Notes under the pieces: generated by a model
What the model was told of the DNA's origin: nothing
Database searches by the model: none
Seen by the model: the letters and a program-made list of their open reading frames with translations, nothing else
Translations under genes and position numbers: made by a program
Shown: piece by piece, positions 17,570-40,856 of the stretch
How the letters are laid out: the number at the start of each line of letters is the position of its first letter
How positions within the stretch are numbered: position 1 is the first letter of the stretch
Origin: Bryum argenteum
Taxonomy: Eukaryota; Streptophyta; Bryopsida; Bryales; Bryaceae
Direction of reading: 5' to 3'
NCBI GenBank assembly: GCA_037043015.1
Contig: CM073321.1
Span: 2,857,001-2,921,000 of the forward strand
Length of the DNA: 64,000 bases

Positions 17570-17619
17570 GGACGTTGCAAGTATGCGAGCGTAGATCGTA
17601 GAGCGGAGAGCGGTGAGCG
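17570..17619 (+). repeat. Left terminal inverted repeat of inner element
   Basis: Starts GGACGTTGCAAGTATG and contains GAGCGTAGAT and GGAGAGCGGTGAGCG. It matches the reverse complement of 34193-34243 over most positions. Followed by a TTTTTTATTATTAGTAAAA stretch also seen at the outer element's end. Confidence 0.85.
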
Positions 17620-18079: not shown

Positions 18080-18202
18080 AATATAAATATATATATATAT
18101 ATATATTTATTTATTTAATGATACTCACAAAGTGGTAGATATTTTGTATTTACATAACGTATGTAGTGTACGTCAATATATTTATATATCTATATATCTA
18201 TA

Positions 18203-18256
<54 letters not shown>
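18080..18256. repeat. AT-rich microsatellites
   Basis: (AT)n tracts at about 18088-18112 and 18200-18254, with TATATC units between. They lie just beyond the 3' end of the inner transposase gene. Low complexity. Confidence 0.85.
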
Positions 18257-18257
<1 letters not shown>

Positions 18258-18276
18258 ATCATGTAAGTGTGGTGAC

Positions 18277-21200
18277 CTAAGATGTAACATGGTCTAGAAG
18301 TCTGCTCTCAATGATCTTCTTCACCTCGTTGAAACTGAGGGTAGGGGCATGCATAAAGAGGTCCACGTCAACATCTAGATTGCACATCGACATTAGGATG
18401 TAGTACATGTGCTTACAATTTTTATACGGATGTCCTTTTCTCCCTAAGGTGACTAGAGTATCCTTGAACGCTGGGCATGTGCATGTTGGGTTTGAACTAA
18501 TTGTGATATGGTAAACTGACTCGGTAGGCGCCGGTTTAGACCGCAACTTAACAATGCATCCAAGAGCGGGTTGAGGTATCATGGTCACCTTCAGAATGGT
18601 TGCTTCCATAGCTCGGGCAGAATAAACGTTCTTCATATACTTTGAGCTAGCACTATGGATGAGACGACGAAGGGCCTTAGAGTTTCGCCTCTTAGGAAAA
18701 ACATCAGCATCGTCTGGCACTGGAATGTGAGACAAATCCTGTGGCAATTCAGTATTAGAAAACGTGCGGTTGATAGGAAGTTGTTCCTTTTGAGGGAGTT
18801 GAAATCCCGCATTCTCCAAAGCATCTATCTCAGTACGTGTGAGCTTTGTCCCTATCTTCACAGGCCAAATTGAAGGAATAGGCGGTTTATCTTGGTTACG
18901 GGAGAACTGCTCAACCCACCTTCGACGCTGGCCTTTCACACAACGCTCAATATCGTCAGCACAGAAAAAGAAATGTTCTTCCACTTTGGTTTTTCTAGGA
19001 GGATGCCATATCCCGGTGTAGGTTGGAGCTGGAGTAGCCTTCCCATGCTGGACAATGCGTGACTTGCAATTTTTCTTGCTCCTGGCCATAATTGCCCAAC
19101 AAGCCTTAAATGAAGACTCCTTGAGACGAGCAATGTGCCATAGCTTCTCGTTCACTTTAGTCTCAAGAACAGCGGTGACACGGGTGATATCGGTTCCAAC
19201 GGATGCTAGTGGTTCAACTAGGCGTTCCTAAACTTCATCTTCCTCGTTGATTGTAATAAGAGTTTGAACACGAGCTCGAGTAACCCTCCTCCCTATTTTA
19301 GGATGTGAGAAGTTCACAGTGTCCGGCCGATGAGTTTCCTCCTCAGCTCCAATTGGTACATCTGGCATCCGTGGTTTGGAACCAAATACCTCAGCTCCCT
19401 CTAGATGTGCATCCCAAATACAATATTTTTGAGCTTCAGGCAACTCCATTATGGCAGCATTGAGGGCCGATGGATCGCCAGTATGATGTGCTTTTCGTTG
19501 GGCTGAGCGTAGCTTAAGTTCTTCTACTGAAGGTCCACCACCACCATTACCACCATTGTTGAAATGATGGTAAGCTACCACTTGCAGAAATGCTCGAACA
19601 TAGTCGTCTACCGCCGCAGCGTACAAGTCTGTACCTTTGTTTCCCGAAGCTTGTAGCCATTTGTTGTGTACAGTCTCTGCAAGATTACAAGATGGCATTT
19701 CCGCAATTTCCTCCGGAGTGTATTTTTTCTCCTATTTAGGGAGATCAGGGAGAAATCAAAGTCAGGAAAAATGGTGATTGGAGAAACCTCTCGTATAAGA
19801 TAGGTTACCTAAAAATAGTTTTATTGAAGAACAATTAGTAGATTTAAGGTGGAATTTTGGTAGAATATTGTACGGACACCTACAATATCTGCAGTAGTGC
19901 AGTAAATAGTAGAATAAATAATCCACCACATCGGTAAGAGTATTCTTACCAGTTCCATGAATCCCCCCCATTGGCGATATCGATAATGCCAGAATCCTAG
20001 CCAGAATCCCAATCGTGTTGCGCCTTCTTCAAATGCTGCCCCTGAGGATGTCCACCACGCTTTGATAGCCAAAAACCGCGTCTCAGCCTCCTCCATTGAT
20101 GATGCATTCTTATATTGAAAGCATAGATGCTTATGTTGATCCTACAATTCATGAATGATGTATTGTTTGGTGTGCTTCTCCAAAGATTGGGCCCAGTGGA
20201 AGAAGCACGTTCTCTCACGACCTTCGAGGGGATCAGCAGGATTGCCCGAACCGTATACAATTCGAACAACATTCCAATTGGCCTGAGCACTATCAGCCAT
20301 GAAGCCTTTAAAGTATGGCTTAGGAACACCGTGCCGGGACATGACGTGATTAAGGTTTTTCCAAAACACAATCTAAGCTTCTCTGTCCTCAGACTGAAAA
20401 TCACAACAAGCAATGGTCAGTACTCATTGGAAATGTGAGTCATACACGTGGCACGCCATGGTTGTCCAACCTGCCACTCGTTTGACATGATCAAACATCA
20501 TCCACGCATTTTTCAGGGGAGCGCCGGGCTGCATTCGTCGGACTAGATCAACCCCGCTACCTGGGCCAACCTCTGACATCTTGAAGATGAAGACTCTGTC
20601 GCCATCATCTTCTTGCCCTGGAAATTGGTTGCGCTAAACAAAGGCCCAATTACTAAGCCCTCTCAATTTCGTAATGCCGTCCATGATGCCAAATCGACGT
20701 AAGTACTTGAACCCGTATATCCTATTTTTCACGCTTGGAGAATTGAGCTCCTTGCAACTGTCGAAGAGAGGTTCTAACTGATTCAATGAAAAATGCGTAC
20801 TGGGCTCACCCTCTTTGTGAAGGAGGAAATTACCTAATAGGTCCTTGCTAGTCTCCATAACAATCTTAGAAACTGTGGCTTGGGGGTTACGTTCGACGTG
20901 ATCTTCTAAAAGTTCGTCTATCGTTCTACGGGTGCCCCTATACTCACCAACCTTGACTGGGTGATGATGAGTCCCAATGTGAACACATGCTCTTTCTTGG
21001 TCTTTACTTCCAATGATATAGAAAATCTTAGCGCTACATGCTGCAACACAAGCAGGAGGCTCCTTACAGATCTTGCAGACGATGGTAGATGTAGGAGGAG
21101 GTGGGCCACCAACAGGGAAGCTTTCCTTTGAGATCCCTTCGTACTCGACTTTGTTCACGCCAGCTGATTGTCCTGATCGTTGTAGAAATGCACAACTTTG

Positions 21201-22086
21201 ATTGTGACACTGAACATGACCAACACAGTTAGAAGATCTGAAAGTCAATCCCATGGTGTTGGAGATGTTAGTGGTCATGGTTCTGGTCCAGATATGTCCG
21301 TCGAATCGTTTGTCCATGCCCTCCATAGATTTTGCTTGTTTATGAGCTGCAGATGGAAGAGCCGGTGGTAGAATGAAGAGTATGTCCCCATTGAATGAAG
21401 GGGGCAGAGGTATCAACATTCAGAGTTTGGATAGTACTGTAATCTAGTTTCTTCAGCACTGTTTTGCTACCAGGCATACTACCTAACTTGCGGATGGAAG
21501 GAAGAATTTTTTTGGGTTTTGAAGATTGTATAGAGTGGAAGGAAGAGGGCGCAGATCGTAAGGAGTTATCAGAAGCAGGTGATGGAGATGATAGTATTGT
21601 AGAAGGTCTACTGGATTGATAGAAAGGCCTTCGCTCATCGTCTTCAGAATCTGACAAATCGATAGTATGACGTAGTCTTGGTTCGACCTTGACACGAGAA
21701 AGTATAGGAGCAACAGTGGAGAGAGTAGACAAACTACGCGGAGTGAGAAGTTGAGTGGTTGCGTTCATAATAGAATCACTCATGCCATATACGCGATACT
21801 TTCCGACCGGTAGTTTCCATATGCTAGAGTTGTTCTCTAAGAGGATTGGCTTGACAACCAAGGAATACTGAACGTCTTGAGTGACAGAATCAACGACGTC
21901 TGTTACTAACCAAACGGAAGCGGCGTCGAAACCAAATCGAATGCCAAGCCACTGTGGTGTGATTTCTGCCACACCTTCAGGACCTGGAGGAACGCATGTA
22001 GGGGCTGCAGAGTGACCGGACCTAAATTCTATAACTTTCAGAGCAGAGGGCTGGGAAGAGGAGGAAGCCATGAAGCAAGCTAGCAA
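18277..22086 (-). pseudogene. Inner MULE-type transposase with SWIM zinc finger, decayed
   Basis: The minus-strand gene starts at ATG 22068 (MASSSSQPSALK) or 22086. Order: N-terminal region with an acidic SDSEDDE stretch, WRKY-GCM1/FLYWCH-like zinc domain (NCVGHVQCHNQSCAF ... RACVHIGTHHHPV), DDE-type core (GFMADSAQANW, FFHWAQSL), intron at about 19949-19732 in the same place as in the outer copy, then a long C-terminal region. This ends in a SWIM zinc finger (CTCPAF ... YKNCKHMYYIL, pattern CxCxnCxH) and HAPTLSFNEV. Decay: a frameshift near 21410, TAG 20634-20636, further stops within HFQ/VLTIAC and DREA/IVFWKN, one before DQHKH, and TAG near 19228. Several match CGA-to-TGA or CAG-to-TAG changes against the outer copy. 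Together the two copies show the complete domain order. Confidence 0.85.
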
Positions 22087-24270
22087 GAGAGGTCGCTACA
22101 ATGGAGATACAGAAAGAGAGTTTAACACAAGATTCAGATCTTTATATTCTAATCAAGTTACTGTTGAATCGGTATGAACTACAATAGGCCGGCACGGATA
22201 TTTATTATGATAATTACCGCGGTTATTGTAAATATTGCAGAGTTTTAAGTTACAATGCTACTAGATCCTACCGAATTGTGGCCACGCCAATTGCTGTTGT
22301 AATTTGGGGTGAAGAATATAATTTGCATGCATCGGTTAGAACTGAATTTAGCAAATGCATAAAAGATGAGCGGTCAATTATCTGGAGAGGTGACGGCGGC
22401 CGTCAATGTCAGATTAGTTCCATATAAGTGTATGTTCTTGAAAAATAGATTGGCAATGGATATTAGACACGACAATCTCATGTCGTAAAAAAAGATATTG
22501 TGGGCGTTGCAATGTTAGGTAACTTATACGCATTGGAAAGATTAGGGTTCGTCAGTGGGGACTGAAGTTGCGGTAAAAGGGATGAGGATGCATGAGTCAA
22601 GTCAAGTCTGCATGACGGCGACCAAATTTTATAATACTATCATCAATTCGCCTATTTCTTTTCTCTTTTTCTTCCACTCAGCAAGATCACCAACTCAGGT
22701 TCCATCTTCAATCAGCTTTTACATTCTCTTGGTCTCAACTCCAATTCGGTCTTTTATTTAATCACTTTTCTTAATCTCATTCCGAATTGTCTGCTGCACT
22801 GACTTCCTTCCTAGTCGGCACACCAACTCACTTGGTATTTTCTATAGAATCTATATCAGTCCACTCTGGCTTTCTTCAACCTCCAACTTGCATTCTTTCA
22901 ATTTTTAATTTGTCACAATCAGTCTTACTTTCTTGATATACATTCAATCCACGACTTGGACTACAACGACATCACAAAACCCACAACTTGGGATAAAATA
23001 TGCTTTTATTTCATTTACAATTTACATACATAGTTCAAATTCTCACACAATTTGCAACACTTTCTATTTCAAATAGTTCATCATATACACAATTCAACTT
23101 CAAACTTCACTTTCCTTCTCACATCCCAATTCGCAACAAGCAAAAGAAAAATACACAGCACAATTCGGCTGGGACACGCCTGGAGTTACTCTCAAACAGT
23201 CGGTCCTTTCTTACTCGGAAGAGAGACCTTTTATGCTCCCGAATCCGCACTTACTTAACCGTTCTCCCACTAGGTACTCCTCCATATCACTAATACCTAG
23301 TTCATTTCACACACTCCGAATTGGTTTTCACTCCTTCTTCATACTCACTAATTGGTTTCTTACTTTCTGACTTCAATTTGGACTTAGCTCCGACTTGATT
23401 TCTTCCCCACTTGGTATCTGTGTACTGATCTCATTCGGACTTGTTGACAGAACTGGGTTCTAATCACTCAATTACCTACTTGGAATTTTTCACTACTTGC
23501 TCTCTTCATACTGAATCTCACCATTCCAACTCGGCTTATCACTCCCCAAACTAACTCTCCAATCACTTTCTGGCTTCTTGTCCCACTCGGTTTATCCTAT
23601 TTGACTGATTTGACAATTCTAACTTGCAAGAAAATCCCACAAATCACATGCAAAAACCTCCATTTGAACACTCAATCTCGGCAAAAATTGGAAATTGTTT
23701 GAATTTAACACTCCAAAATTGTAACAGCAAAATCCAACTTGTTTATCTACACAGGCTCCATTCACTTAATTATCGCTCAGAGGACGACCAAGCACATATC
23801 AAGGATTGGTCGAACGAAGTTAGAAGTCCTTTATAGGTCAACTTGATGACGGTCAACTGTTGTGTTTGAGAGTCGAAGAATGGGTTATTTCCCTAGCTGT
23901 CGCCATTTCCTCCTTCTTGCATGTGCCATCTTCCTTAAACTGCTAAACGAGAGAGAAGGGACAGTTTTTTAAAAACAAATGCGTAGTTTTTACAAAATTT
24001 GAAACTGTGGCTCCATATATATCTCAAGATCCGTATGGTAAAATTGAATAAAAATTGGTGGATAAACTAATTAGACAGTTATAAGGAGATCTTACGGTTG
24101 GATCTTTCAAAATCAATTTTCTACATTATTTATTAATGAATTACAAATATGGTCGTCTAGAAGGTCATTGTAGTCTATCCAATTTAGGGTTTGATAGTCT
24201 TCTTCCTACTAGGAGGTCTTCCTTTTGTCCTCTGCATTTGTTAGAAGGCTTGTTTTCGGTTGGATTTAGG
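22087..24270. other. Intergenic DNA inside inner element, no gene seen
   Basis: From about 22560 to 23600 the plus strand is C/T-rich with recurrent CACTCGG/ACTTGG words. Open frames here are under 100 codons and lack recognised motifs. The first 300 bp are the likely upstream region of the minus-strand transposase. Confidence 0.5.
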
Positions 24271-24304
24271 GTTTGATTGTAGAAGAAGGTTTAAGCGAAG
24301 CTAA

Positions 24305-24532
24305 ATGGACCTGTCAGATGAAGGTGAGGAGAATTCGAAAGGTGGATCAATGGATCATGACGACCCAACATCTCCAGAACATGAAGGTAAAGATCGAATC
24401 TGTATGTTTTGTGGGAATTTCGGGGTGTGCAGGGCGTGCGAGGCGTTCAAAGATTGCCGGTGCCGGCTTCCGCGATCCAACTGCCGTTACGGTGATGGTG
24501 AGGTCCTCAGAGAGCCGGTGCCGGCAGTCTGA
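24305..24532 (+). CDS. Small Cys-rich ORF, unrecognised
   Basis: A 75-codon frame starting MDLSDEGEENSKGG, with an acidic first half and a Cys-rich second half: CMFCGNFGVCRACEAFKDCRC and a further Cys. The spacing CxxC, x4, CxxC, x5, CxC could bind zinc. Two GCCGGTGCCGG motifs, the same as in the satellite at 27.4-28.2 kb, lie inside or at the end of the frame. It could be a 5' exon of a longer gene or a chance frame. No splice partner could be shown and no function is assigned. Confidence 0.3.
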   Translation: MDLSDEGEENSKGGSMDHDDPTSPEHEGKDRICMFCGNFGVCRACEAFKDCRCRLPRSNCRYGDGEVLREPVPAV

Positions 24533-25429
24533 GGAAGGCGAAGATTCCCATTCCCATTCTCTCACGTGTCCTCCCTAATTGAAGGGGCAGTCGATTTCAG
24601 AACGCTTGTTCGATTGCCTTTTAGTGAAGATTCAAAAATGTCGAGTTGTCTTCGGCGAAGCAGACGTCGTTACTCGACACCTATATACTCCGATCAGCTC
24701 AAGCCCGAGGTCGGTGCCGCAACTCTCTCTCAATTGCTTCCAATTTCAGTCTTAAGCTTTGATCTAATCAATGCATTTTGGGTACCCACACTCATTTTCA
24801 GTTTCAGTGATTGTCAGTGCAGCAGGATCGAAGTACAGAGCTCTTGCTTTTCGATTACTGAAATGGATCATTGATAGCTTGGTGCATGTTGTTGTTTGAT
24901 GTTTCATGGCTTGGATTTTTCCAGACTTCTTCATTACTGAACTTACTGTGGTTATTTTTACCAATTATTTTGCAGCAGAGGTGCTTCGTTGATAGATCTC
25001 TGGAATACGTGCATTCTTTTAAAACTTCGGAGATCTTACTTGTCTCCGCATGTATTTACATTATTCGCCTTCTTTGTGGCGTTTTTATTGTGCAGATATG
25101 TTTGCTTGTTATGAGATCCTGCGGGGATATCCGAGATTGCTTTGCTGGGGCTAATGGTACAGAAACTGTTTAAAGGGGGTCAAGTTTGTCAATATTTTTC
25201 CTCACCAACGACGAGACAAACAAACAGTATGTTGGTCATAATTATCCTTGATTTTAAGTTGAGTCGACGATCAGTATGAACGTTGTCGGGCTGAAGTGTT
25301 CAACTTTGTTGTTTGCTCGTTGATGATCGTTGTTTACGTTTCCCTTTTGCTCTGATCCCTTTCTTGTTATTATGGGACCTTCAGGAGTTAAAAGGAAAGG
25401 GTCAAAAATTTCTTCTTCGGAAGATCAGG

Positions 25430-27360
25430 ATGGGCGTATTCGGACCATCGGGAGGTTTTGACATTCACAATTTTTTTAACAAGTCGCCGCTCAGTCCTTA
25501 TCCTCCTCAGCAACATGCTTCCCAACCACCTTACCCTGCTAGTCAGATTTCTCAGAATCCAGGATCTTTTACTTCAAATTCTGGCACCACCCGCACTGTC
25601 TTCTTCGGCTCAAACCTCACCTTCTCTTTTGGATGGCGCCCGCCTTATGGCACTTCTAACAACGAACATTGGAGCTGAAGCATCTAGCAATGACGACAGT
25701 ACATTCCTTTCTAGTACTCAGCACAGTGTCAGTGGCCAATACCCTTCCTACCAGGCTATTAGCCAAGATGTCGCTGTACATCCACTTGCTTTGGCTCCAG
25801 CATTGCCCACAGCTCCGCCAGCCCTAGACTCGCAAGCAAGTTCCACATTTGTTAGACCATCCAGTGGCAAGCAACCTCGGGGTCGGTCTCTTTGGGGTGA
25901 TCACGTTGTCTATGATGTGGATGTTCGTAAACCTGGAGAGGCTCAGCCTCAGCTGGAAGTTAGCCCTATTACAATTTATGAATTGGACCCACTTTTGGTC
26001 CTCGGACCCACTTTTAATCCTCGGAAGACAAATTGCTGTAAACAAAAGGTACATATGCTACGGTTTGCGGCAGGGCACAATTCGCATTCTGAATATCAAT
26101 ACGGCATTGAAAGCACCGCTTCGAGGTCATATGCAAGTACTAGAAACTTTTGGTTTTTGGCTTAGTTTGCTACGTCAATGCCGGTAGTTCTCTATCTGAC
26201 AGAAAGATGTGAGGGAGTTGCACCTTTTAAGATATCTACTTTCTCATCTTGTGAATGCAGAGGGTAACGGACATGGTGTTTTTGTCAAAATTTCAACACC
26301 TGCTTGCAAGGTTCGTACTCTTAGTCTTGTCTGTATGCTACAGTCGCACGCCGCCACGCCCTTGTCGAAGTGTTCAATTTTCTGGGTATTCGCTGACGAC
26401 CCACAGCTCTATTTGTTACGGAGATACTTTGTTCCAGCGTGGAAATCTTGACATTTACGTAGCTGTAATTTATGCCATTACGAGCCATTTGCTGGTTCGA
26501 GTTCACTGACTGGATTAAAGGGAAATGTCTCCGTCGATTTCGTGTAAGTCACGGAAAGTCTCTTCCCATTCTATATCTGATGCACACAACTGCTGCAGCG
26601 CAAGCGTAGATGGACGCATCTATGTCCAAAGAATTCTAGAGGGACCATGTTCTGAAGGCGGCAAGATCCATATCACGGAGCAGATGTTGGTGGCCATACA
26701 CATTGTTGGGAACTGGGAGTCGTGTCATCCACGTGTTTGCTGGTATCTGCAAGTGAAGGTAAATAATAGGTCTGTCATGAGTGAAAGTGGCGCATCTGTA
26801 ATGTGCTTACATTTTTTTTTTAATATGAAGATGTGATAAATTTATCGGCATCGTCCATTTGCTTCAGATGACATCCTATAATTTGTAAGCTTAGTCTTCG
26901 TGGCCTTGCCTTCTGTTTCGGCTTGGCCATCTTACATTGGTACGCCCGTACTGACGCAGGACGTATTGGAAGTAGCGATTGGGAAGGTTGTTCTCAGTAT
27001 CAATGTTCTGAAGTTACAGCAGGCCGCACCTCAAGAAGGTTTTTTGGCCGATCAACCTCTCAAGTGTCAAGTCGATAAACCATTAGAAGGAGTGCATGTG
27101 GTGGGTGCGCACAACGGCAATGTCACGGACTTGGTTGTGCCTTCTTTTTCCACCTTCAAAGTGGCATCACCCTCAGAAGATGGCATGGTGCGTAACTTTT
27201 CGTGGTTGAAATACACATTGTATACAGTAGTCTTGCGTCTTCACACAACTAGAATTAGCTTCTGTCTCGGTGCACATCTATTAACAGTTCATTACTATAT
27301 TCTTCAGATGCGCTTATGGGGTGACAGTAATCAGAACCCCCTCTCAATCATGTCCGAACT
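25430..27360 (+). pseudogene. VCS: Captured VARICOSE (EDC4-like) fragment, N-terminal half
   Basis: VARICOSE is the WD40 scaffold of the plant mRNA-decapping complex in the cytoplasm. Visible exons are 25430-26136 ([31 protein letters not shown], then [12 protein letters not shown]), 26261-26310 (RVTDMVFLSKFQHLLA), 26599-26758 (SVDGRIYVQRILEG, HPRVCWYLQ), 26960-27187 (VLEVAIGKVVLSI, GVHVVGAHNGNVTDL) and 27308-about 27350 (MRLWGD). GT-AG intron borders are kept, so this is a copy of genomic DNA and not of mRNA. Exon 1 has a frameshift near 25590. A near-perfect 19-bp duplication (GACCCACTTTT..TCCTCG) near 25988-26025 causes a second. The coding sequence stops where GCCGGTGCCGG repeats begin at about 27390, and the C-terminal half is absent. 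Gene family is recognised with good confidence; functional use is unlikely. Confidence 0.82.
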
Positions 27361-27388
27361 GTCAAGAAATGTCCGAACTGAGATGGCC

Positions 27389-28210
27389 ATTTAGAGTGCC
27401 GGTGCCGGCAGTGTGGTCAACCAACCGCCGAACTGAGATGGCCATTTAGAATGCCGGTGCCGGCAGTGTGGTTGACAAATGATTACTTTCAGACCATTCA
27501 AGCGAACAAAAAGAAGTTCCAACCATTCCATTCTCATTGCTGAAACGTATTGTCGCATTAAGAGAAGGATGAACTATGATGTTGATTTGCTCTTTCGAGT
27601 GCTTCATTTCATGGTTCGTCATGCGGCTCGACAGCTTTCCCTTTGTGCTCCCTCAAAGCTTAAAGTAAGTAGCTCTTTCATCTGGTGAAAGTGTATTTTG
27701 TCAAGGAAATTAGGTTACAGGCAATGATGTGTGTTATGGTGAGTTGAGTTCACGTCATGTTATGAGTGCCGGTGCCGGCAGTGGAAAGTAGCTACGGAAA
27801 ATATGGCCCGACAATGAGAGTATGAAACGAGTATAAGCAAATTATTAAGTGCCAATGCCGGCAATGTGCACATTATGGTTATAAGCAGATTATTGAATGC
27901 CGGTGTCGGCAATGAGATGGGTATAAGCAAATTATTGAATGCCGGTGCCGGCAATGAGATGGGTATAAGCAAATTATTGAATGCCGGTGCCGGCAATGAG
28001 AGGCGTATAAGCAAATTATTGAATGCCGGTGCCGGCAATGAGATGGATATAAGCAAAGTGTTAAATTCTGGTGCTGGCAATGACAATGTAAGTTGTCGCT
28101 AATGGAATTGGATGCATGTCTCTTCCTGGATTACAGGTTTATCGGTGCCAATTTGGATAAACATGATTGCTTTCGTAATAGATATTTTTCTATGCCGGTG
28201 CCAATAGTAC
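27389..28210. repeat. GCCGGTGCCGGCA satellite and dispersed copies
   Basis: The motif TGCCGGTGCCGGCA occurs at about 27391, 27449 and 27764. About six tandem ~42-bp units (ATAAGCAAATTATTGAATGC plus GGTGCCGGCAATGAG) follow at 27840-28085, with a last degraded copy near 28193. Two further copies lie at about 24458 and 24510, so the repeat brackets the VARICOSE fragment. Stretches between copies hold short non-repeat DNA. The long open frames across the tandem part are repeat artefacts. Confidence 0.8.
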
Positions 28211-28611
28211 CCCTCAGGTATGGTGTTTAATAATGAAAAGATGAAAATAAGTATTTTTTGAGTTGTATTTAGTTTTAAGTTAATCTAGTATTCGTAGTAA
28301 GGAGCTAATTTCAATTTGATGTATTAAAATTATGCTATGTGTTTTGGTGTAAGTGATACAACTATGGACTTTAAATTTTGGTGTTTCTTACATCATTTGG
28401 ATCCTATTATTTGGTGCTGATTGATTTGTGGGTTTGACTTGGTGCAGCTCTAGGAACATTCCTCTTCTCAATGGCCTTAAGATGGAGGGGTTTGTTCCAA
28501 TATGATGTTGTGCCAATAGCAACACATCGGGCTCTATCATCTTGAGTACTAAAGAATTATATCTTTATTAGTGGTTTTTGCTAATGGTTATGATTTGTTT
28601 GGTTTTTGTAG

Positions 28612-31600
28612 GGACACATCAAGATGATACACCTCTTGATGATACCATAGGAGATGAATCAGATGATGGAGAAGGGAATCTTGGGGATTCAACAAGCAAA
28701 TCGCACAGTGTTGTACAAGAAGAAGGCGAAATTGTAAAGACCAAGAGAATGAAGAAGAAGCAACCTGAAGTGTTATCAGAGTCACAGCTCCAAGGAGAGC
28801 TAAATCAGCTTTTGGCAGAGCAATCAGTGGACACCACATCGAAAATAGAACAACTTCGATTCCAGCCAGTTAATAAATCAAGGTTGTTTATCCCCTTGTG
28901 TCGACTGGTGTCCCTCCAAGCTGTGCGGCCTGCTCTCAAAGGTGATATTACGGATCTACAGGCGCATTTTGTTAGTAAGGGCTACATGGAAGGCTTTGGA
29001 GCATTTTACGTATCTTTGGAGGATGACGAAGGAAATTCTGCCAACCTTACACCGGCTAGCGAATCTACGTGGAGTGCACAGTGGAAAACCAGGAATGCCG
29101 AGTTTGAAAAGCTATTGCTTGCAGATCCAGTGCTCAAAGTTTTTTCAAACAAAATGTTTCACGTTTGGGATGGCAATCACAGGCTTCAAGCATGGCGTCC
29201 CATCATTGACATGTATCATGCCAACGAACTGAAGTGGCATTATACCGTTGACTGCATAATCCTCACACTGAAAGGAAATCTTGTCACAACGTTGACAGCA
29301 TTGCATGAAATTAATTGGTAAGTTTTAAATAAACAATCTGGATTGTATTAACCTTTACAATATTGTTAAGTTCCAAATTATTTCATTTAGCGCAATCAAT
29401 TACTGTCCTAACGTGCATTGTGCTTACAGGAGCAATGAGAAGTCTTATGTGAAAGCAAACTTGGTGCACAAACTCTATCGAGTAAACAGGGTCGGACAAA
29501 AGCCTGTAGAAAATTTCAAAACATTAATTTCTAAAGAAGAATATGATGCGTCCATCAACAAGAAGAAGAAGACTTGGTACAAGTTGACCGTAGAGGCGCT
29601 TAATGGAGTATTGTACCAGGTATTTTACTTGTGCAATTAACTTGAATTTAGATTTTTGTGTTTATTTGTTGGATTGACATTTCCATTGGATTGCAGCAAG
29701 ACATTGCTGAGGAGGCTGCTTGTCAAACAAGGAAGTACTACAAGAAATATCCCAACAAGGAGGATTGGACGAAGGAATCGGTCCATGATTATGTGAATGC
29801 TGTAGTTATGGACATGAAGAAGAAAACTCTTTCGGAATTGAGGAAACAACTTCCTATTGCAAGTACAGATAATGGGGAACAATTCCCTGAGGAGATTAAG
29901 CGTCATTACGAGCTTTACGAAAAAAAACCAGAAATGTTGGTAGAAAAATTGTGGACGTTTTCTATGACTACAATGGATATCAACACTAAAATTAAGTGGC
30001 TACAACATTGGAACATGGCGCCCCGATCTCGCGAGCAATCAAAATTTCCAAAATCTGGTTTTTCCGATGTTAAATTTGAGAAATTCTTGGACAAGGCTAC
30101 TTGGTGGGCACATGTAGGTTTACATATTCACATGCAATGTCTTGAGATTTGGAGTGTATGTGTAACATAGTATTCTTTACAATATAAAGTGTCAAGTCAA
30201 TTGAATCATATGTTTATGATTGTTAATAAGTTTTAACTTGAATTTCAACTCTAACGTAAATATTCATGTTTTGAACTTCTATATTAATTTTTTGCATTTT
30301 ATTCTAATGTAAACCTTACTCTGAACCTTTTATCATGCTTTATAAGTGTTGAGAGTTTAGTAATAGCAAGTTTTATAATGTTCCAAATAATTCATGTACT
30401 CAAAAAATTTCTCTTTTATTTATTACTAAGCACTAAAATTATTGTGTGTGCAGTTGGCAAAACAAGTTACAACCTTGTTTGAAGATTCTCTCACTGAGTT
30501 GAATGCAACAATCAACTACAAGTCCCTAGACGCGAATCCGATTCCAGAGATTTTGGATTACGTTGAGCAGTGGAGAATTTCTCTTTGGGATGACGCATTC
30601 TTTAGGGAGTTTAAGGAAGCCAAAGGCGTCAAGAGAAATCATGAACCACATCAACAACTCAATTTTGATTCCGCTTGTAGCCGTGTGCTTTACAGATATT
30701 ACACACATGTTCTTGTCCCTGCCAAGGCTGTAGAGAAACTTCCAGCCTCCTTCATGTCTTACACTAATTTGAATAATCCTGAGTGCATGTATACAGCTGA
30801 AATGGTGGCAGATTGGAATGTGGTGCATTACAAGTTCTGTGGATGGTACATGGATTGTCCAATGAACAAATGTCCATCCGATGAGCTTGCTATGAGGACT
30901 ACGTTGGAGCCCAATCTCATCATCAACCAATCACTTCAGAAAAGTGTTGAAGATGAAGAAGTAGGTACTTCAAGAAGAGGCAAGCGAATCATAAAGAAGA
31001 AGTCGGCAGTTGTTGAGCCTTCAGAGGCTCCTCGTCAAGCTGCACAAACTTCAGGAGTTCAAGCATTGCTTCAACCAGTTGAAAGTGATGACGGAATGGA
31101 GAGTTCTGGAGCATTGCCTTCTAAAAATATTCCGGTTTTGCAGGCCGGAAAGAGATCAAGGAATGTTTCACTTCTAGGGCCCTCTTCACCAACTCACAAG
31201 CGCCACAAACCGAACAAAGATGTGTCACAGTTTTCAATGTCTCCAACTGCTGAAATTTCACAACTTCCATTGACCTTAAGAGGGATGTTCAATGATTTAC
31301 ACCCAGTTCGATCGTCGTCGTCATCAAAAACAAAGCTAATCAATGATTCTCTGGTTCGTTGGTGTGAGATGAAACAAGCTCATAAAGAAAAACAATGGCC
31401 AGGAGAGTTTGATGAAATGTTGGCTTTTATCAAACTTGTAAGTAATTTCCGCTAACATAAAATGTTTTATTATTTCTCTTGGTTTTCTTGACTATATGAT
31501 TTTGTTTAAACTTTTGTTGACAGAAATCTCAAAGGCTTTTGCAGGTTGGAGCGGGACGAGATATGTATTTCAATGGTGTGAAAAATTCATCCCCAGGGGT

Positions 31601-32787
31601 CGATTTGCTAATTGCAGACTACCCGGATGGCCTTCCTGTTCCTGGAGTGAGTGACCCGCCTCATCAAATTCCTAATTGGAATTCTCATACTCCATGGTTT
31701 TTGAAGACAATTATGATGTTCTTTAAGAATGTTGTTCATGATGATGGTGCACTATTGATTTTCTACCCCGAAAGTTCAGCTGTACGACGTGAGATTTTGA
31801 GTCTTTTTCCAAGTTTTGGTGTTAAGCTACGGGATGAATGGAAGGTTCTCAACTCCCTGCCCTTAACAAGTGCATCGAACCCAGGAAAAGAAGTAAGTTC
31901 TCTACTTTTATGTTTCATTTGCATTTTGGTCGATCATGTTTGTAATATGACTACTTTCCTGGTTTATTCTTCAGACCTACATGTCAAAGGCGATGTTACT
32001 GGTACGATCACTTGCACCTGAAATTTCTAGACAAGCTAAGCCACTTATTATTGCAGAGGATCCATACACATCGGAAGTCAACCTCAGAAAGCACGATATG
32101 ATATGTAACTTGGTGGATTCCAAGTCTTTGTTGTGTAGAGCAGCAGATGGTAAACCATGGAGAGGACCTAAACAGAAATCAGACCTTATTATGAAGGTTC
32201 TAATTCATGGCTTAACTCCAACGAATGGCATTGTGGTTGATTTTCGAGCCGGCACAGGTATTTGTCTATCATACAATTAATAATTGTTTCATTAATTTGT
32301 CTTCTTTTGCTTTGAAGCTTAATACTAAATGTTAAAATGTGTGTGCAGGTGACACGATTCGGGCGGGATTGTCCTTGAATCGCCATGTTGTAGCTCTAGA
32401 GCGTGATCCTCACATCTTCAAGGAGCTACTTGAGGCAATCATCAGAGCCCCAACAACAGTTTCACATGCACCAAGTGAAGTGAGCACTGACTTGGACGAA
32501 GATGAATCTCCAATTGTAGCCGCCCCATTGGAGGATTTTTGTAAGTGAGTTGATAATCTTTTTTAATTTAATTCCACACATGTTAATTAAATGAGTTCTA
32601 ATGTAATTTGTATATGTGTTTGTGCAGTCATGTAAGCAACGGCCCTCCGGATTCGACCTTTAATTTCTTCATCCGCTCTAGGACACCATCACCTTCCTTT
32701 AGCCTTCCATGTTACGCTGAAGGAATTGCTCGTGCATTTTGTAGTGTGATTTCGGATTCGAGTGATGAAATATCATCGCCACCTTGA
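28612..32787 (+). CDS. ParB-like domain plus beta-class DNA methyltransferase-like protein
   Basis: Eight exons: 28612-29317, 29430-29619, 29697-30113, 30454-31437, 31524-31892, 31975-32257, 32349-32544 and 32628-32787 (TGA 32785). All joins keep phase with GT-AG borders, giving about 1,101 codons with no stop. The first exon upstream of the TTTTTGTAG acceptor is not resolved. Near visible residue 183, FHVWDGNHRLQAW fits a ParB-like core. Residues about 450-760 form a linker with basic, nuclear-signal-like patches (GKRIIKKKS, KRHKPNK). From about 767 comes a beta-class MTase layout: LLIADYPDG at the motif IV place (normally DPPY/SPPW), a DGALLIFYPES strand, RGPKQKSDLIMKVL (motif X) and VVDFRAGTGDTIRAG (motif I, AdoMet binding). 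Such ParB-methylase fusions occur in phages and bacteria, where they modify adenine N6 or cytosine N4. Catalysis here is uncertain because motif IV is altered. Confidence 0.78.
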
Positions 32788-34192
32788 TACGACTCTCGTG
32801 TTCGGCAGTATTTGGATATTAGTGCTATAGAGTCTGACTGTTCTTCTTAGAACATTTTGTATCAAGTGACTCGCATATTATTTGAATTGATTTTCTATTA
32901 CTATAAATTGCTCCAAAATTTGAATTGTTGTTTTACCATTGGATCTGTTCTATTACCATTAATCACAAAATTCCAATTTTGAGAAACCTTGCTTCATAAG
33001 TGTACTCTATCTACTGAATGGCCTATTCAAAATTCCCAAATGGACCCCCACTCTACTATTGAATTTCAATACTTGTATTTTCAGCATTTGTGGAATCACA
33101 ACATTTGTAGTTAATTTAAAAATATTAGTGAGCATTTCTTGGAAATATTTAGTCTACGTTTTACAAACTCAAACGGAAATGTAATGATTGTTACTTTGAA
33201 GTATTATCATCATAATTTTTTGTTATGTAGATAAAGCAGTTGAAGATTTCCATGCAAAATTTTTGAAATTCATTGCGTTTTTAGAACCTTAAATCCTTAA
33301 TGCATATAATTTACTAAAATAATGTCAAAAAATAATGTTAGAACATGCAACACAATGACTGTATATTATTTAGGGGAAAAATTAACAATTATTAAATATC
33401 CTTACGTATTTGTAATTTTAGGCATACTTTTTAAAATAGAATCCCAAAATCATGAATTTTAACAAACATTGAAAGACTTTCATTTGGAGAATCACTTTTG
33501 ACATGTGATAAGAGTATTGCTATTTTGAATAGTGCCTCTGCGCTACAATTCAAACTAAAAGTCTTTAATACGGAAAAAATGACACTAACGCCTATTATAT
33601 CATTATGTGCATTAAATGATGTTGGAGCTAAATAATATAGACCTTATTTATTGAACAATATTATTAGGCCATTATGTGTTGTCCCCCTGATTATGGGCAC
33701 AGTTCTTGTATATTTTCTTACCAAATATAATTCATACATTTTGTATTCAATTTTATTTTTTTCAAATTTCCTTAAACTTGTAAGCTTCAAATTATTATTA
33801 AGATTATCCCTTGCAAAATTGGGCATGTAACCCTCCGTGAGGAGCCTTTGTCATGAAACTAAAACACGAAATTAAATTCTTGCCATCACAGATACAAAAT
33901 GATGACGTCAGCCCTAAATTGTAACAACTTTGTATAGTATAAGGGATATTAAATAATATTTGAATGTATTTGATTTATAACGTCAGCCTCAATTTTTTAA
34001 AGCAAACTACTTAGGATTTATTTTATCAATACAGTATATCTAAAAATCCACGGACTTAGGACCCATTTGTTTTGAAAAACAAATTAAATTATTATATATT
34101 AAATAATATTTTTGGTAGTAGGCTACCTTTCTTTTTATATTTCCTCAAAATACTTTGGAAAAATTCCTCACTGCTCTCCTCTCACCGCTCTC
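32788..34192. other. AT-rich 3' flank within inner element
   Basis: Includes the probable 3' UTR of the methyltransferase-like gene and AT-rich subterminal DNA. No open frame with recognised motifs. CTCACCGCTCTCC units begin at about 34170. Confidence 0.5.
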
Positions 34193-34243
34193 CTCTCACC
34201 GCTCTCCGATCACCGCTCTACGCTCACATACGTGCATTCCCCA
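34193..34243 (-). repeat. Right terminal inverted repeat of inner element
   Basis: The reverse complement starts TGGGGAATGCACGTATG and contains GAGCGTAGAG and GGAGAGCGGTGAG, pairing with 17570-17619. Just inside it, CTCACCGCTCTCCT is tandemly repeated three to four times (about 34170-34210), a subterminal feature common in Mutator-like elements. Confidence 0.85.
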
Positions 34244-34252
34244 AAGTGGCTG

Positions 34253-35626
34253 CAAGCGTCTGGCAATAAGGGTAGAAATCTCTACGTCGCAACCGTTGAC
34301 AACTACGTTCGTGCCTTCCTCCAAGTCGTCGGCTACCATCAATTTAACAAAGGCGGTGCAAGTGGTTCTGGACCATCCGTAGAAGAACTTCGTCAGCGTC
34401 TTTATACCGCTCAACGTCATGCGAATCGATCTGGAAATCCATCTTGCCTCAACAAGGCTATTATGGACTTCCCTGAAGCAGAAGCTTGTTGTACGCGTCA
34501 CGCCCACTTGGACGGGGCAGAGATTTTTGGTTCCATGAAATGTAAGGCTGATGTTCCCATTGGTGCTGAAGATGAAACTCATCAACCTGACACCGTGAGC
34601 TACTCACGTCCTCGAATAGGGAGAAGAGTCACACGAGCTCTTGCTGAGAATCTCAATCCTATCCACGAAGAAGGTGAAGATCAAGAGCAACCGCTGGAAC
34701 CGTCCTCTTCTCCTAGACCCAGTATTCAGTGCGTCATTGCTATCCAAGAGACTAGAGTGAATGAGCGTCTATGGTACATTGCCCGTTTGAAAGAATCCTC
34801 ATCTAAGGCTTGTTGGAGTATTATGGCTAAGACCAGGAAGAAATGCGAATCCCGCACTGTCCGAAACGAGAACGCGACCGCAGCTCCAACCTACACCAGA
34901 GTATGGCAGCGTCCTCAAGAAGGTCCAAAAAAAACTGATCAGTTCTTCTTTTGTCCAGACGACATTGAGCGTTGTGTGAAGGGCGGTCGTCGTAAATGGA
35001 TTGAGCCGTTCTCTTGGAAACAAGGTCGACCGCCTATTCCCTCGGTTTAGCCTGTGAAGATTGGGACTAATCTGACACGTGACGATATAGAGGCGTTGGA
35101 GAATGCGGGTTTTCGGCTCCCACAAAAGGAACGCCTTCCTCTCAACCGCACATTCAATACTTCTGCCCCACCGAGAGACGTGTCACATATTCCAGTGCCG
35201 GACAAGGCTGATCTGTACCCCAAATCACGCAAGTCTAAAGTTCTTCGGCGTATCAAGGCTGTGACTCCGAAGCACATGAAGAACATTGACTCAGCTTGTG
35301 CCATGGAGGCAAAAATACTCGAGGTAACCATGATACCACAACCTAGTTTTGGATGTATCATTGCTTAGGAGTCGGATTCAGAGTCTATCTATAAACTATC
35401 TCTAAGTGAGAACCCTGAGTGTTCTTGCCCAGTGTTCAAAAAAACCATAACTAAATTAGGATGAAAATGCGAACCGTATAGACATTGCAAGCACCTATAC
35501 TTCGTGTTGGTATTGGTATGCAAATTTGATGTTGATAGGGACTTCTTCATCCACGCGCCCACCCTCAGTTTCAACGAGGTGAAAATGATCCTAGAGAGGG
35601 GAATCCTAGACCAAGTTACAGAGTAG
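34253..35626 (+). pseudogene. Outer MULE-type transposase gene, 3' part
   Basis: Continues the frame of 15550-17569 after the insertion: QASGNKGRNLYVATVDNY and onward, collinear with the inner copy's C-terminal region. It ends in a SWIM-type finger (CSCPVF ... YRHCKHLYFVL) and HAPTLSFNEV, then TAG at about 35624. Stops occur at TAG 35048-35050 (Trp in the inner copy), TAG near 35366 and TGA 35462-35464 (Arg in the inner copy). It had therefore already decayed, or decayed after being split. The frames seen from 34112 upstream belong to the inner element's end, not to this protein. Confidence 0.83.
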
Positions 35627-36370: not shown

Positions 36371-37667
36371 TTAGGATGGCCTAGGCTTATGAGGGTATCG
36401 TTGATGAAATGCCTGTACCTTTTCCAGCGCGTTTGCAAGATTTTCGGCATCCTCCCACGTTCTTTCATTGATGTCGTAGCCGCTCCAATGCACAAAATAC
36501 TCCAATTTTCCCCTTTTGTGCCCTGAATCTAATACTGTTTCCACTTCATATTCCTCGTGGTTCTCAATTTCGGTACCAGGTGGCGGCCCTTGCACTCTTT
36601 CTGAAAAAGTCCATGCGCGATAAGGTTCCAACAAAGACACGTCGAAGACTGGATGTACCTTTATAGCAACCGGTAACTCTAGCCGGTAAGCCACTGAATT
36701 CGTTTGTTTCTCGATGACAAATGGTTCCAATTTTCGATAGTCCAACTTGTCACACGGCCGCTTGGTCTTGATGTTCTGTCGAAGCAGCCATACCTTATCT
36801 CCAATCTTGAAACTAGGTCCCTTGTCCCAAAATTTATCTGCGGACGCCTTGTAAGACTCTTGTGCAGCTTGCAATTGAAGTTTCAACATTGCTTGAATCT
36901 TTGATAGTTGCTTCGTAGATTCCTTAGCTACCAGATTGATGTCACTTTGTTGATGAACTCAACAAATCACGCTTTGGATGATATCCATAGTTGGAAAAGA
37001 ATGGTGTTTGTTGAGTTGACGCATAAAGAGTGTTGTTGTAAGCCAACTCGACAAGTGGTAGATATGTGGTCCGATTGTCTTGTTGATAGTTGATGTTGCA
37101 TTGTAGGTTTTATTTCAAAACTTGATTCACCCGCTCCGTTTGGCCGTCAGTATGGGGATGGAAAGCCAAAAAAAACTTGATATCCACCATCAATGCTTCA
37201 AAGAGAGATCTCCAGAACTTCGATACGAGCTGAGTTCCTCAATCCAAAACAATATCATCTAGTAGGCCATGATAACGATATATGTTATCAAGAAAGAGCC
37301 TTGCAGTATCTTCACTTGAAGACGCCTTCTTGCAAGGGAAAAAATGTGCCATCTTTGTGAGCTGATCCACTACAACAAAAATGCTATAAAAAATGAACCT
37401 GATGGTGTTAGGTCTGTAATGAAGTCCATAGAAACCGAAGACCATGGTCGACACGGAATAAGCAATGGCTGTAGAAGTCCATAAGGGCGATGCCGAGGAT
37501 TCTTGGATCTCGAACAAATGTCATAAGTAAGGACAAACTCCTTTACATCCTTTCACATTTGAGGCCACCAAAAGACTTGGGAGATAAGTTCCAAAGTCTT
37601 ATTCAACCTGAACTGTCCCGCAGCTGGAAAGTCATGACGAGATTGAAGAACTCGGAGCCGTGTTGGT
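36371..37667 (-). pseudogene. Chromovirus integrase core, C-terminal region and chromodomain
   Basis: The minus-strand frame 36889-36371 carries the integrase C-terminal GPY-type region (FKIGDKVWLL, DKLDYRKLEPFVI, HPVFDVSLLEPY) and a chromodomain (YEVETVLDSGHKRGKLEYFV, WSGYDINERTWEDAENL). The aromatic cage-type residues Y, W and W are visible. The integrase core at 37100-37667 is spread over frames (SMDFITDL, VVVDQLTKMAHFFPCKKA, HPHTDGQTERVNQ) with at least one frameshift and one stop. Chromodomains of this kind direct insertion into heterochromatin. Confidence 0.85.
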
Positions 37668-37672
37668 CCCTT

Positions 37673-38078
37673 TATTGAGATTCAATAGAGGGAGAGAGAG
37701 AATTCAACACACTCAAAGCTCACAAATAGTAGAGCAAAGAATGCTTGAATGAAATACTCACTCATTCCAAGTACTTACTTATATATCCAAGTGAAGGCAC
37801 TAGGTGCTACAACAAAGATAAGGTTAGAGTGATCAAGATCGCTCTACAAAGGATAGACTACTAGAGGACCTTCTCTCTCTACATACGATAAGGCTCTAGT
37901 GGTCCATCCTTCTCTACACACGATAAGGCTCTTGTGGACAAGCCCTCTCCATATATGATAAGACTCTATTCATCCAACACTCTCCATATACGATAAGACT
38001 CTATTCATCCAACCCTCTCCACATACTCAAATTAACTCTAGTTACCCTTAGTAACTACGAGCAGTCTAATCTTCAACA
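37673..38078 (-). repeat. Copia 3' LTR
   Basis: On the plus strand it starts TATTGAGATTCAATAG and ends TAATCTTCAACA. It is 406 bp, about 35 bp longer than its partner because it has one extra CTCTCCATATACGATAAGAC-type unit. Confidence 0.9.
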
Positions 38079-39841
38079 CTCCTACTTTGCGAGTAGTTAC
38101 CACCTCGCAATCCCATCGCCTTTGTTAGCTTCTCGTGCCTCACCCTAGCAAGCGCCTTTGTCAACACATCCGCCATCATGTCCTCCGTTGGGCAATACCA
38201 CAAGCTCACCTCTCCGTCCTCTAACTTCTCCCAAATGAAGTGATGTTGCACATCTATGTGCTTCGTACGAGAGTAGTGTTAGGGGTCCTTTGCAAGCGCA
38301 ATGCACCCTTGGTTGTCACACAAGATCTTGTGGCCTCCGCTTGCACAAACCAAACATCCTCCAATAGTTGCCCTAGCCACAACGCCTCCTTCAAGCAATG
38401 ACTAGTTGCCATGTACTCCGCCTCCGTAGTAGACACCGCTATCGTAAGTTGCCTCTTGCAATTCTACGAGATTGCACCATCTCCTCAAGATGCGTTTAAT
38501 CGCCATCCAATGTTGAGGCCCAGCCTTCGCCATGAATTGGCTCACCATGCTCACTGCAAATGCAAGGTCAGCCCTTGTGGCCACCATTGCATACATCAAC
38601 GACCCCACTACAGCCTTGTATGGAATAGCCTTCATCTCCTCTTCAACCTCCTTAAACTCCTCGTCCGAAAACTTCAACAACGACCCCTTCACATCAAGCG
38701 GCGTGCCAATCGGCTTGCACTCCTCCATTCTAAACCGCTTGAGCACCTCCTCAATGTATTTGCCTTGGCTCATGGTGATGATGCGTGCACTGCGATTCCT
38801 CTCAAACGCAACACCAAGGCAAAACTCCAAAGGCCCAAGATCACTCATCTCAGACTCCTTCTCAAGCTTGGCCTTCAACCACCCCAAAACCGCATCAGCA
38901 CTAGCCAAGATAATCAAATCATCCACATAGATGATTACAATCAACAACAACTCTCTTGTTTTCTTCACATACGAGGAGTGATCCGCATGGCTTCTAAAGA
39001 AGCCTTCTTTGGTGAAAAACATGTCAATCCTTTGGTACCACGCCCTTGGTGATTGCTTGAGCCCATACAACAACTTCTTGAGCTTGTAAACAAGGTGTTG
39101 AGTGCCCTCCTCCACAAAACCAAGGGGCTGGTCTATGTAGATGTCCTCCTCCAACTCACCATTCAAAAACGCCGTCTTGACATCCATTTGGTGAATCTCC
39201 AAGTCTATGGCTGCCCCAATCGCCAACATGCAACGAATGGTGGTAAACTTTGCCACGGGTGCAAAGGTCTCATGGAAATCCACACCTTCCACTTGAGAGA
39301 AGCCCCTCGCCACCAACCGTGCCTTGTAGCGCACCACGTTGCCTTGTGCATCCCTCTTGGTCCTAAACACCCACTTGCAACCAACACTCTTGCGGGCTTT
39401 TGGCAATGGAGCGAGCTCCCATCTGCCATTGGCCATTAGAGACGCATACTCCTCTTGCATGGCCAACTCCCACTTGCTTGCATCCACACTTTGCAAAACA
39501 TCACCCAAACTCAAAGGATCATCAAAAGAAGCCACATTTGCACATTGTATCTCGTTAGTGGATGGAAGAACGTGATTCAACCACCACTCACCTGGCGGCC
39601 TCCTCTCCCTTCTTGGATACCTTGAGCCTTGTGCACGTTGCCCTTCATCAATCTCCTCGTATGGACCTTGCTTTTCTTCCACTACCTCCTCTTCTTCTTT
39701 CTCTTGTGGATTTTGCACACCTTTAAACTCCTCTCTAACTTCTGCCTCTTGTACAACGGGCGCTGAAATTGGAGGTGTATCCACCAAAATTACCGAAGGT
39801 GGCTCCAAACTCCCACTTGGATGCATCTCCACATATACCAA
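38079..39841 (-). pseudogene. Copia reverse transcriptase and RNase H
   Basis: The frame at 39841-38402 contains RT motifs VRYKARLVARGFSQ, VKTAFLNGELEEDIYIDQP, GLKQSPRAWYQ and IIYVDDLIIL (catalytic YVDD), then VVGSLMYAMVATRADLAF. Near 38487 the frame runs abnormally from KRILR into a different frame: the SKGTIDYKLCL to DADWAG region found in the 7.3-kb copy is deleted. RNase H remnants (STTEAEYMATSHCLKEALW, and the final 61 codons to 38066) follow in separate frames. Confidence 0.88.
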
Positions 39842-40712
39842 ATAGCATCCTTCACAAATACCACATCACGACACTTGAGGATCTTCTTTGTCTCCAAACA
39901 CATCAACCTATAAGCCTTGGTTCCTTCACAATAACCAAGAAACACACACTTTGTGCCCTTTGCATCAAGTTTAGTCTTCTTTTCATCCGGCACCTTTGCA
40001 TAAGCAACACACCCAAACACACGCATGTGTGTCACAAAAGGCTTCTTACCACTCCATGCCTCTTCGGGTGTCTTACCAACAAGTGCACTAGTTGGGCACC
40101 TATTGCGTGTGTACACCGCTGTAACCACCACTTCCGCCTTAAGGTTCTTGTTGAGGTTTTGGTGATGTAGCATGCTCCCTGCCATCTCTACAATGGTGCG
40201 ATTTGCTCTCTCCGCCACTCCATTTTGTTGTGGTGTGTATGGTGTTGATAGTTGTCTCTCAATGCCATGTGCTTGCAAGAAGCGTTCAAAGGCCTTGGAA
40301 GTGAACTCCCCTCCATTGTCGGACCGAAATGCTTTGATCTTGTGCTCCGATTGCTACTCCACAAGGGCCTTGAACTCCACAAACTTGGCAAACACCTCTC
40401 CCTTGGACTTCAACACATACACCCACACCTTCCTAAGAAATCATCAATGAAAGTGACAAAGTACAAGCAACCGCCTATAGAAATGGTCTTAAATGGACCA
40501 CACACATCCGAGTGAACTAACTCCAAAGGCTTGGTTGCACGTTGACTTCCCTCACTTGGAAATGGAGTCCTTGAGAGCTTGCCTTCAACGCACCCCTTAC
40601 AAACCGCCAAATTCGATGGTCCATCCTTGATTTGCATGCCATTCACCATGCTTTGAAGCGCCTTGACACTCTTCACATTCAAATGCCCAAGGCGTCTACG
40701 CCATAGCTCCAA
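39790..40712 (-). pseudogene. Copia integrase
   Basis: N-terminal zinc-binding part at 40712-40410 (LWRRRLGHLNVKSVKAL, CKGCVEGK; HHCC type) and catalytic core start (VHSDVCGPFKTISIGG, FVTFIDDF). After a frame break it continues at 40278-39790 with GIERQLSTPYTPQQNGVAER and RTIVEMAGSMLHH. DDE-type core; frames are interrupted near 40410 and 40350. Confidence 0.87.
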
Positions 40713-40749
40713 AGCGGCTAATTGTGGTATTTAGTGTGCTACATTGGCC

Positions 40750-40856
40750 ATTTCATGCATGAAAAGGGCATTTCATGCATGAAAAGGGCATTTCATGCAT
40801 GAAAAGGGCATTTCATGCATGAAAAGGGCATTTCATGCATGAAAAGGGCATTTCAT
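40750..40856. repeat. 20-bp palindromic tandem repeat in Copia
   Basis: CATTTCATGCATGAAAAGGG is repeated about five times. Its core TTTCATGCATGAAA is a perfect 14-bp palindrome. It lies between the protease and integrase coding regions and helps to break the polyprotein frame. Confidence 0.9.

Follow-up and report, generated by a model that had tools for sequence, protein, structure and literature searches.

A gene with ParB-like and methyltransferase-like parts in a Mutator-like transposon of the moss Bryum argenteum: a candidate self-recognition factor beside palindrome arrays

Why does a moss transposon carry, next to its decayed transposase, an open gene whose predicted protein combines a ParB-like motif with a methyltransferase-type fold? 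The question is raised by a 64-kb stretch of Bryum argenteum DNA (assembly GCA_037043015.1, contig CM073321.1, positions 2,857,001 to 2,921,000; here referred to as the window, in whose own numbering plain positions are given), where a sequence-only reading had described such a gene at 28612–32787. We analyzed this gene, its transposon (element A) and their relatives in the same genome, of which 258.8 Mb in 25 contigs were searched. The gene is located in a transposon, is paired divergently with a transposase in distant lineages and is under purifying selection on its protein. Moreover, arrays of a palindrome with the core TGCCGGCA have been amplified in front of the long first exon, which here means within the predicted first intron, and in a relative within intron 5. 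We put about even chances on the protein being a self-recognition factor, perhaps an anti-silencing one, that works like the VANC proteins of Arabidopsis on a two-gene Mutator-like transposon family. ParB-methyltransferase transposon genes are already known from algae, as the excerpts of Dinatale et al. 2025 (PMC12477816) report, and the sequence-only reading was therefore too strong in calling such cargo a new strategy; the palindrome arrays beside the gene are new here.

The eight exons of that reading, whose numbering we keep, lie on the plus strand at 28612–29317, 29430–29619, 29697–30113, 30454–31437, 31524–31892, 31975–32257, 32349–32544 and 32628–32787. Their borders are AG acceptors and GT donors, and together they form, in phase, an open frame of 1,100 codons ending with the TGA at 32785–32787, as had been claimed. 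Exon 7 can only have the GT at 32545 as its donor, because the alternative GT at 32541 shifts the frame. A homology-guided spliced alignment recovered the window structure. In five relatives from this genome (m1, m7, m9, m1b and m10) it gave exons that largely match those of the window, although in m7, m9 and m1b the script inserted one or two introns more. In-frame stops occur in m1 (two), m7 (one), m9 (three) and m1b (two), and none in m10. The proteins of the window, m10, m7 and m1b are 43–46% identical in alignment and share many invariant residues. Since the relatives give largely corresponding exons, and three of them a protein so similar, the exon join is not due to chance. Exon 1 does not open with an ATG. 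One is supplied by a predicted 5' exon of 82 bp at 24305–24386 (plus strand, sequence prediction), where it immediately follows a stop; this exon has a GT donor, joins 28612 in frame and contributes 28 codons including the split junction codon. The C3 and C1:36247 copies conserve it without loss of frame, C3 with one 3-base insertion. With this exon the gene is predicted to have nine exons and a 4.2-kb first intron (24387–28611, plus strand).

The C-terminal part had been read as a methyltransferase with motif X and motif I (VVDFRAGTG) in beta-class order, and profile comparisons with Pfam, PDB entries and phage enzymes bear this out. Motif X ('RGPKQKSDLIMKVL') and motif I lie in exon 6, the remaining motif I region and the retained acidic residue after it in exon 7, and the motif IV position (ADYPDG) in exon 5. 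The METHYLTRANSFERASE part matches PF01555 with an E value of 2.5e-5 and 24.8 bits over residues 953–1007, just below the cut-off of 26.7; three of four family members match PF01555, and four of five sequences match DNA methyltransferases of PHROG. When a five-sequence profile was compared with PDB, CcrM, HpyAVI and other beta-class enzymes ranked first (best E 0.0028), and a weak second stretch placed 'avdLiiaDyPdglrvPG' opposite 'VDLIFADPPYNLQLGG' of CcrM. An hhalign comparison with phage methyltransferases covered 64 columns around motifs X and I, with a probability of 92.9. When the full-length profile of four members was used by itself, PDB yielded no methyltransferase. There are good indications of a methyltransferase-type fold in beta-class order for this part, and S-adenosylmethionine may still be bound. 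Compared with beta-class DNA methyltransferases (CcrM, RsrI, HpyAVI and phage enzymes; PF01555), the window protein is alike in motif order and, by profile, in the region for S-adenosylmethionine binding, whereas it has long extra N-terminal and middle regions and lacks the catalytic DPPY.

The catalytic motif IV of amino-methyltransferases has the consensus [DNS]PP[YFW], and the methyltransferases compared here show DPPY. The window gene has DYPD instead, a sequence outside this consensus; among six spliced members, DYPD is found in five (window included) and EYPD in one. Twenty further exon-5 loci, chosen across the lower-scoring matches and several of them near-identical, read D-[YFLIAV]-[PLS]-[DE], with P third in 18. 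In total the fourth position is acidic in all 26 sequences and aromatic in none, several of these again being near-identical. The pattern suggests a conserved non-canonical motif IV with changed or lost chemistry. Hence the fold proposed by the sequence-only reading stands, but an active N4-cytosine or N6-adenine enzyme is doubtful, because the DPPY position reads DYPD.

The DGNHR motif of the N-terminal part (residues 186–190 of the 1,100, in exon 1) is of a core type that we take to be linked to ParB/Srx, and VWDGNHRL is invariant in five aligned sequences, including that of a fern. A DndB match with an E value of 0.027 in one of five sequences scanned is the only hint toward the ParB side. 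ParB would be a motif-level assignment, made on DGNHR alone: the core motif claimed earlier is present and invariant, but it was not joined by any ParB profile match. The profile search that had been proposed as a check was likewise divided, with PF01555 matched at a sub-threshold 24.8 bits and ParB unmatched.

We then compared the window gene with nine copies (fragments included), for which the ratio of non-synonymous to synonymous substitution rates (dN/dS) was 0.31–0.56. This check, also proposed earlier, indicates selection on the protein. Against the C3 copy there are 68 non-synonymous and 57 synonymous changes (Fisher p 1.2e-9). Two copy pairs that do not include the window gave dN/dS of 2.04 over 140 codons and 1.01 over 100 codons. 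Window-C3 differences affect 12.7% of CpG sites versus 3.8% of CHH and A/T sites, an excess expected if 5-methylcytosine of the host deaminates at CpG sites. The intron divergence between the two (0.059) is lower than dS (0.085), so dS is raised, perhaps by CpG. The window gene is the only near-complete stop-free one among the copies examined; in C3 the gene is interrupted by two stops and by an insertion of one base. Four copies (c4_4111, c1_36902, c1_9896 and c6_860) have stops at the same codon, 157, of the gene.

The gene lies within element A, a transposon of 16,673 bp at 17570–34242 that is delimited by a pair of terminal inverted repeats and by its ends aligned to the C3 copy. The left repeat occupies 17570–17620 (plus strand) and the right one 34195–34242 (minus strand); their 42-nt arms, 17576–17617 and 34195–34236, are 86% complementary and were extended to the element ends at 17570 and 34242. 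Immediately outside, the left target-site duplication GAAGTGGCTG (17560–17569) is identical to the right copy AAAGTGGCTG (34243–34252) at nine of ten bases. The C3 copy can be aligned with element A at both ends, in the transposase part (93%) and in most of the gene (94–95%), and it has a perfect 10/10-bp target duplication, GTTGTTGTAA. Mutator-like elements (MULEs) are characterized by terminal inverted repeats with a target duplication of 8–11 bp, and both copies show such ends, with 9/10 bp in the window and 10/10 bp in C3. The inverted repeats, the target duplications and the C3 copy establish that the gene is transposon cargo, as had been proposed. Right ends of the same pattern are also present at C3:2842100 and C1:23749315; genome-wide, among the matches listed, the end pattern comprised the window and C3 pairs as well as short pairs such as C2:20746307-20747615. 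For the element at C9:562165, the second end was not found within the 4.6 kb examined.

Other parts of the element vary. The block 23756–24544 is common to element A and the C3 copy; 22655–23755 and 24545–27371 are not, and are probably later insertions or replaced filler. The 1.3-kb element-end pair at C2:20746307-20747615 is probably a non-autonomous derivative. A variant right end is found at C1:39689557-39702245 and C1:31708263-31710383, with a more diverged family gene, whose motif IV is DAPE, about 2 kb inside it.

The transposase of element A (18277–22095, minus strand) is decayed and Mutator-like, with a SWIM-type CxCx(n)CxH pattern recognized by eye. At least five stops had been reported in it; stops are indeed present, but at least four were seen and a fifth was not counted, namely three in 393 aligned residues and one between the open reading frames (ORFs) 19231–19731 and 18277–19227. 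A third element was found on C7. It encodes a protein 43% identical to that of the window and, divergent from this gene, an open transposase ORF of 600 amino acids that is 40–46% identical over its core to the transposase of element A. The inverted ends of the C7 element, at 11377906 and 11394443, are 74% alike over 76 bp, and it is flanked by a 17-bp direct repeat (11377884-11377900 and 11394454-11394470), unusually long for Mutator elements.

To count such pairs we set 153 exon-1 places (149 from one genome scan and 4 from another, one split match being dropped) against 165 transposase places (146 from one scan and 19 picked by eye from another, perhaps incomplete), all among the matches listed. 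The counts are lower bounds, as the true transposase partners of C3 and C7 are missing from these matches. Among them, a gene and a transposase are no more than 12 kb apart in 14 cases. Ten of these have the transposase upstream and on the other strand, while about 0.6 pairs are expected for each of the four arrangements. Within 25 kb the divergent-upstream arrangement occurs 17 times versus 5, 5 and 4 for the others. A divergent transposase lies within 60 kb of 6 of 35 gene loci, and one in another orientation at 7 more; most listed family genes have no listed transposase nearby. The divergent layout is common to distant lineages, and the gene and transposase are thus an old pair. As for the size of the family, there are 151 exon-1 matches from 150 scored of 1,062 candidates, and 150 matches of the motif-IV exon from 150 scored of 813 candidates.

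We further focused on the non-coding DNA in front of the gene. Two TGCCGGTGCCGGC-type sites lie just after the predicted 5' exon (24455–24532, plus strand), followed by an array of near-palindromic TGCCGGTGCCGGCA sites (27397–28083, plus strand) with a 42-bp tandem unit at 27875–28083. TGCCGGTGCCGGCA occurs exactly six times at 27397–28037, in part as the 42-bp tandem unit. All eight TGCCGGCA of the 64-kb window are inside the predicted first intron; the palindrome is CCGG-rich and adjoins the gene. Genome-wide, the 17-mer TGCCGGTGCCGGCANTG was found 37 times versus 0 for the reversed control, and 35 of these, at 12 loci, are followed within 2.5 kb by a family exon 1 on the same strand. Four of the 35 adjoin family genes that were found after the pattern was chosen. 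Of the remaining two, C1:21480054 precedes a gene copy by about 11 kb, and C6:625255 stands alone with no listed family exon nearby.

Of the 1.8-kb upstream regions of eight members, four (window, m1b, m10 and C3_245) are enriched in TGCCGGC/GCCGGCA, and no other 7-mer is enriched in as many; m7 and m9 have arrays of different repeat units (59 bp and 85 bp, respectively) without TGCCGGC enrichment. Among twelve flank pieces in which TGCCGGCA was counted, L024 stands out with 27, and this flank was found to hold an unsuspected family gene, located at about C6:851728-855649. It is preceded by 117-bp and 21-bp arrays, and further ones lie in its intron 5, between exons 5 and 6. Moreover, 8 of the 14 listed clusters of TGCCGGCA pairs, belonging to seven genes of which two are element A copies, lie less than 5 kb from a listed exon 1, where 0.29 are expected. 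One more cluster, at C1:2731360, follows an exon-5 match at a distance of 0.35 kb.

These arrays recall the VANDAL elements of Arabidopsis. According to the excerpts of PMC5735166 (2017), short motifs have been amplified into tandem repeats in upstream regions and introns of these elements, and VANC proteins bind the motifs of their own elements. The two systems are alike in having an accessory gene beside a MULE transposase and motif arrays, an intron included, and element-specific motif arrays in non-coding DNA, a VANDAL-type feature, are found here. They differ in that VANC proteins have DUF1985/DUF287, with no methyltransferase fold reported in those excerpts, and in that motif binding and hypomethylation were shown for VANC, while the window protein is known from sequence alone. 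We found no Pfam match to DUF1985 or DUF287 in the window protein or the members scanned. With a layout close to VANDAL/VANC and no VANC domain, the protein may work like VANC without being one.

The nearest system in protein make-up is the algal one. Sola1-1_Ec32 of Ectocarpus, as described in the excerpts of PMC12477816, encodes a ParB-like protein with a methyltransferase of the N4-methylcytosine/N6-methyladenine (4mC/6mA) type; it has 1,104 amino acids, compared with 1,100 codons and a predicted 28-codon exon here, and, within a giant DNA transposon, its gene runs in the direction opposite to the transposase. Sola1 is not Mutator-like, however, and belongs to a brown alga, and the two are likened by description alone; palindrome arrays and an altered motif IV are not mentioned for the algal gene in those excerpts. 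Retrotransposons carrying a DNMT (PMC5890265, in excerpt) are alike as transposons encoding a methyltransferase, but theirs is a C5-type enzyme and they are retrotransposons. PMC6446971, on Mutator evolution, mentions no methyltransferase, ParB, moss, Physcomitrella, or accessory or additional gene, and in open-licence PubMed Central papers we found no report of such a gene in a Mutator-like element, nor of palindrome arrays.

Relatives were also searched for in other organisms. A profile search of a large protein set returned one match, the 807-amino-acid hypothetical protein L7F22_033079 (P0001) of the fern Adiantum nelumboides (E 4e-18), and a second profile gave this protein again as the single match; about 7,990 candidates were scored each time. 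The fern protein likewise has a DGNHR part followed by a methyltransferase-like part, but its motif IV is DPPS. The window protein alone found nothing at E <= 10. Against phages, the fern protein gave weak matches in the motif I region (listed rows E 0.09–1), the annotated ones mostly methyltransferases. A ParB query matched only phage tape measure proteins (E 4–6), and no ParB domain was seen in the three phage methyltransferases inspected for it. A phage or bacterial donor was also considered: 29 and 34 pattern stretches were found in viral and prokaryote contigs, and none was confirmed by tblastn.

How then should the gene be explained? On the reading to which we give even chances, the second gene of the transposon would encode a protein with an N-terminal ParB-like (DGNHR) part and a C-terminal beta-class methyltransferase fold. 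This protein would bind the TGCCGGCA arrays, and the transposon would in this way recognize its own regulatory DNA; recognition might keep the element genes expressed, or otherwise control the copies, against host silencing. Binding or recruitment would be expected rather than 4mC/6mA marking, because the altered motif IV makes ordinary DPPY chemistry unlikely. A more specific version is less likely. In it, a large Mutator-like family would have reshaped a fused ParB-methyltransferase into a sequence-specific protein against silencing whose catalysis is altered, an independent counterpart of VANC, and its TGCCGGCA targets would have multiplied in tandem within its own introns and control regions. 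Several results weigh against self-recognition. No piece of transposase scanned has a Pfam transposase match, and the Mutator-like label therefore rests on the ends, the duplication length and the SWIM pattern. Family members have no ParB match in the Pfam, PHROG or PDB profile comparisons, and AlphaFold2 models were unusable, with a predicted local distance difference score (pLDDT) of 34 for the fern protein alone and 42 for the exon-1 stretch with the fern protein. Of the nine near copies examined, eight are interrupted by stops or frameshifts, the other being a fragment of 13%. As for the arrays, 31 of the 35 well-placed 17-mers are at eight near copies of element A, so these sites are not independent; four of the eight upstream regions (m7, m9, m1 and C9_562) show no TGCCGGC enrichment; TGCCGGCA pairs 12–42 bp apart number 261 per strand versus 166 for the reversed control; and 5 of the 14 listed pair clusters have no listed family exon within 5 kb. 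Tandem arrays can, besides, spread any sequence without selection.

The same data can be set against other explanations. An active N4-cytosine or N6-adenine methyltransferase could mark the transposon palindromes, to protect or label the DNA, as the retained motif I, motif X and following acidic residue and the CCGG-rich palindrome beside the gene would allow, and as was suggested by the sequence-only reading and, for the algal relatives, in PMC12477816 (in excerpt). This is unlikely, since motif IV lacks PP and an aromatic residue in 26 of 26 sequences (several near-identical) and the fern relative has DPPS. Two-gene Mutator elements such as maize MuDR, with MuDRB, offer a precedent for a different role, in which the protein would help or regulate transposition by an effect on the transposase or the ends, not on silencing. 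The pairing with a transposase in distant lineages agrees with such a helper, but the ends are not where the repeats cluster: these lie in front of the long first exon and in intron 5, and we regard this role as rather doubtful. The broken state of eight of nine near copies would also suit a captured gene that hitch-hikes, repeats included, under little selection, and MULEs tend to acquire host gene fragments (PMC6446971, in excerpt). Such a passenger is very improbable: dN/dS of 0.31–0.56 and the same divergent layout in the distant C7 lineage contradict it, and the family is deep and conserved, with largely corresponding introns and many invariant residues. A recent accidental capture is ruled out by dN/dS, the corresponding exons in relatives and the two-gene layout of C7.

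ParB-methyltransferase accessory genes are now placed in a Mutator-like family with at least about 150 scored first-exon matches. Beyond the algal account, as far as its excerpts go, this adds a candidate for the DNA target, an active site that is conserved though non-canonical, and evidence of selection and of a long-standing pairing with a transposase. It also makes directly testable whether transposons use such proteins to recognize and protect their own DNA.

Element A itself appears to have been inserted into an older related transposase gene (element B) and to have split it, as parts of the latter flank both sides. The 5' part (15508–17559, plus strand) has an open ORF of 485 amino acids at 15508–16965 and forms the inverted repeats I1 and I2 with 19940–20791, and the 3' (SWIM) part (34253–35620, plus strand) has an ORF at 34103–35050 and forms the inverted repeats I3–I6 with 18283–19662. 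Farther out, ORFs on the minus strand resemble, by eye, a protein kinase gene at 13397–15008 and Copia-like retrotransposon gag, integrase and reverse transcriptase at 36371–42126.

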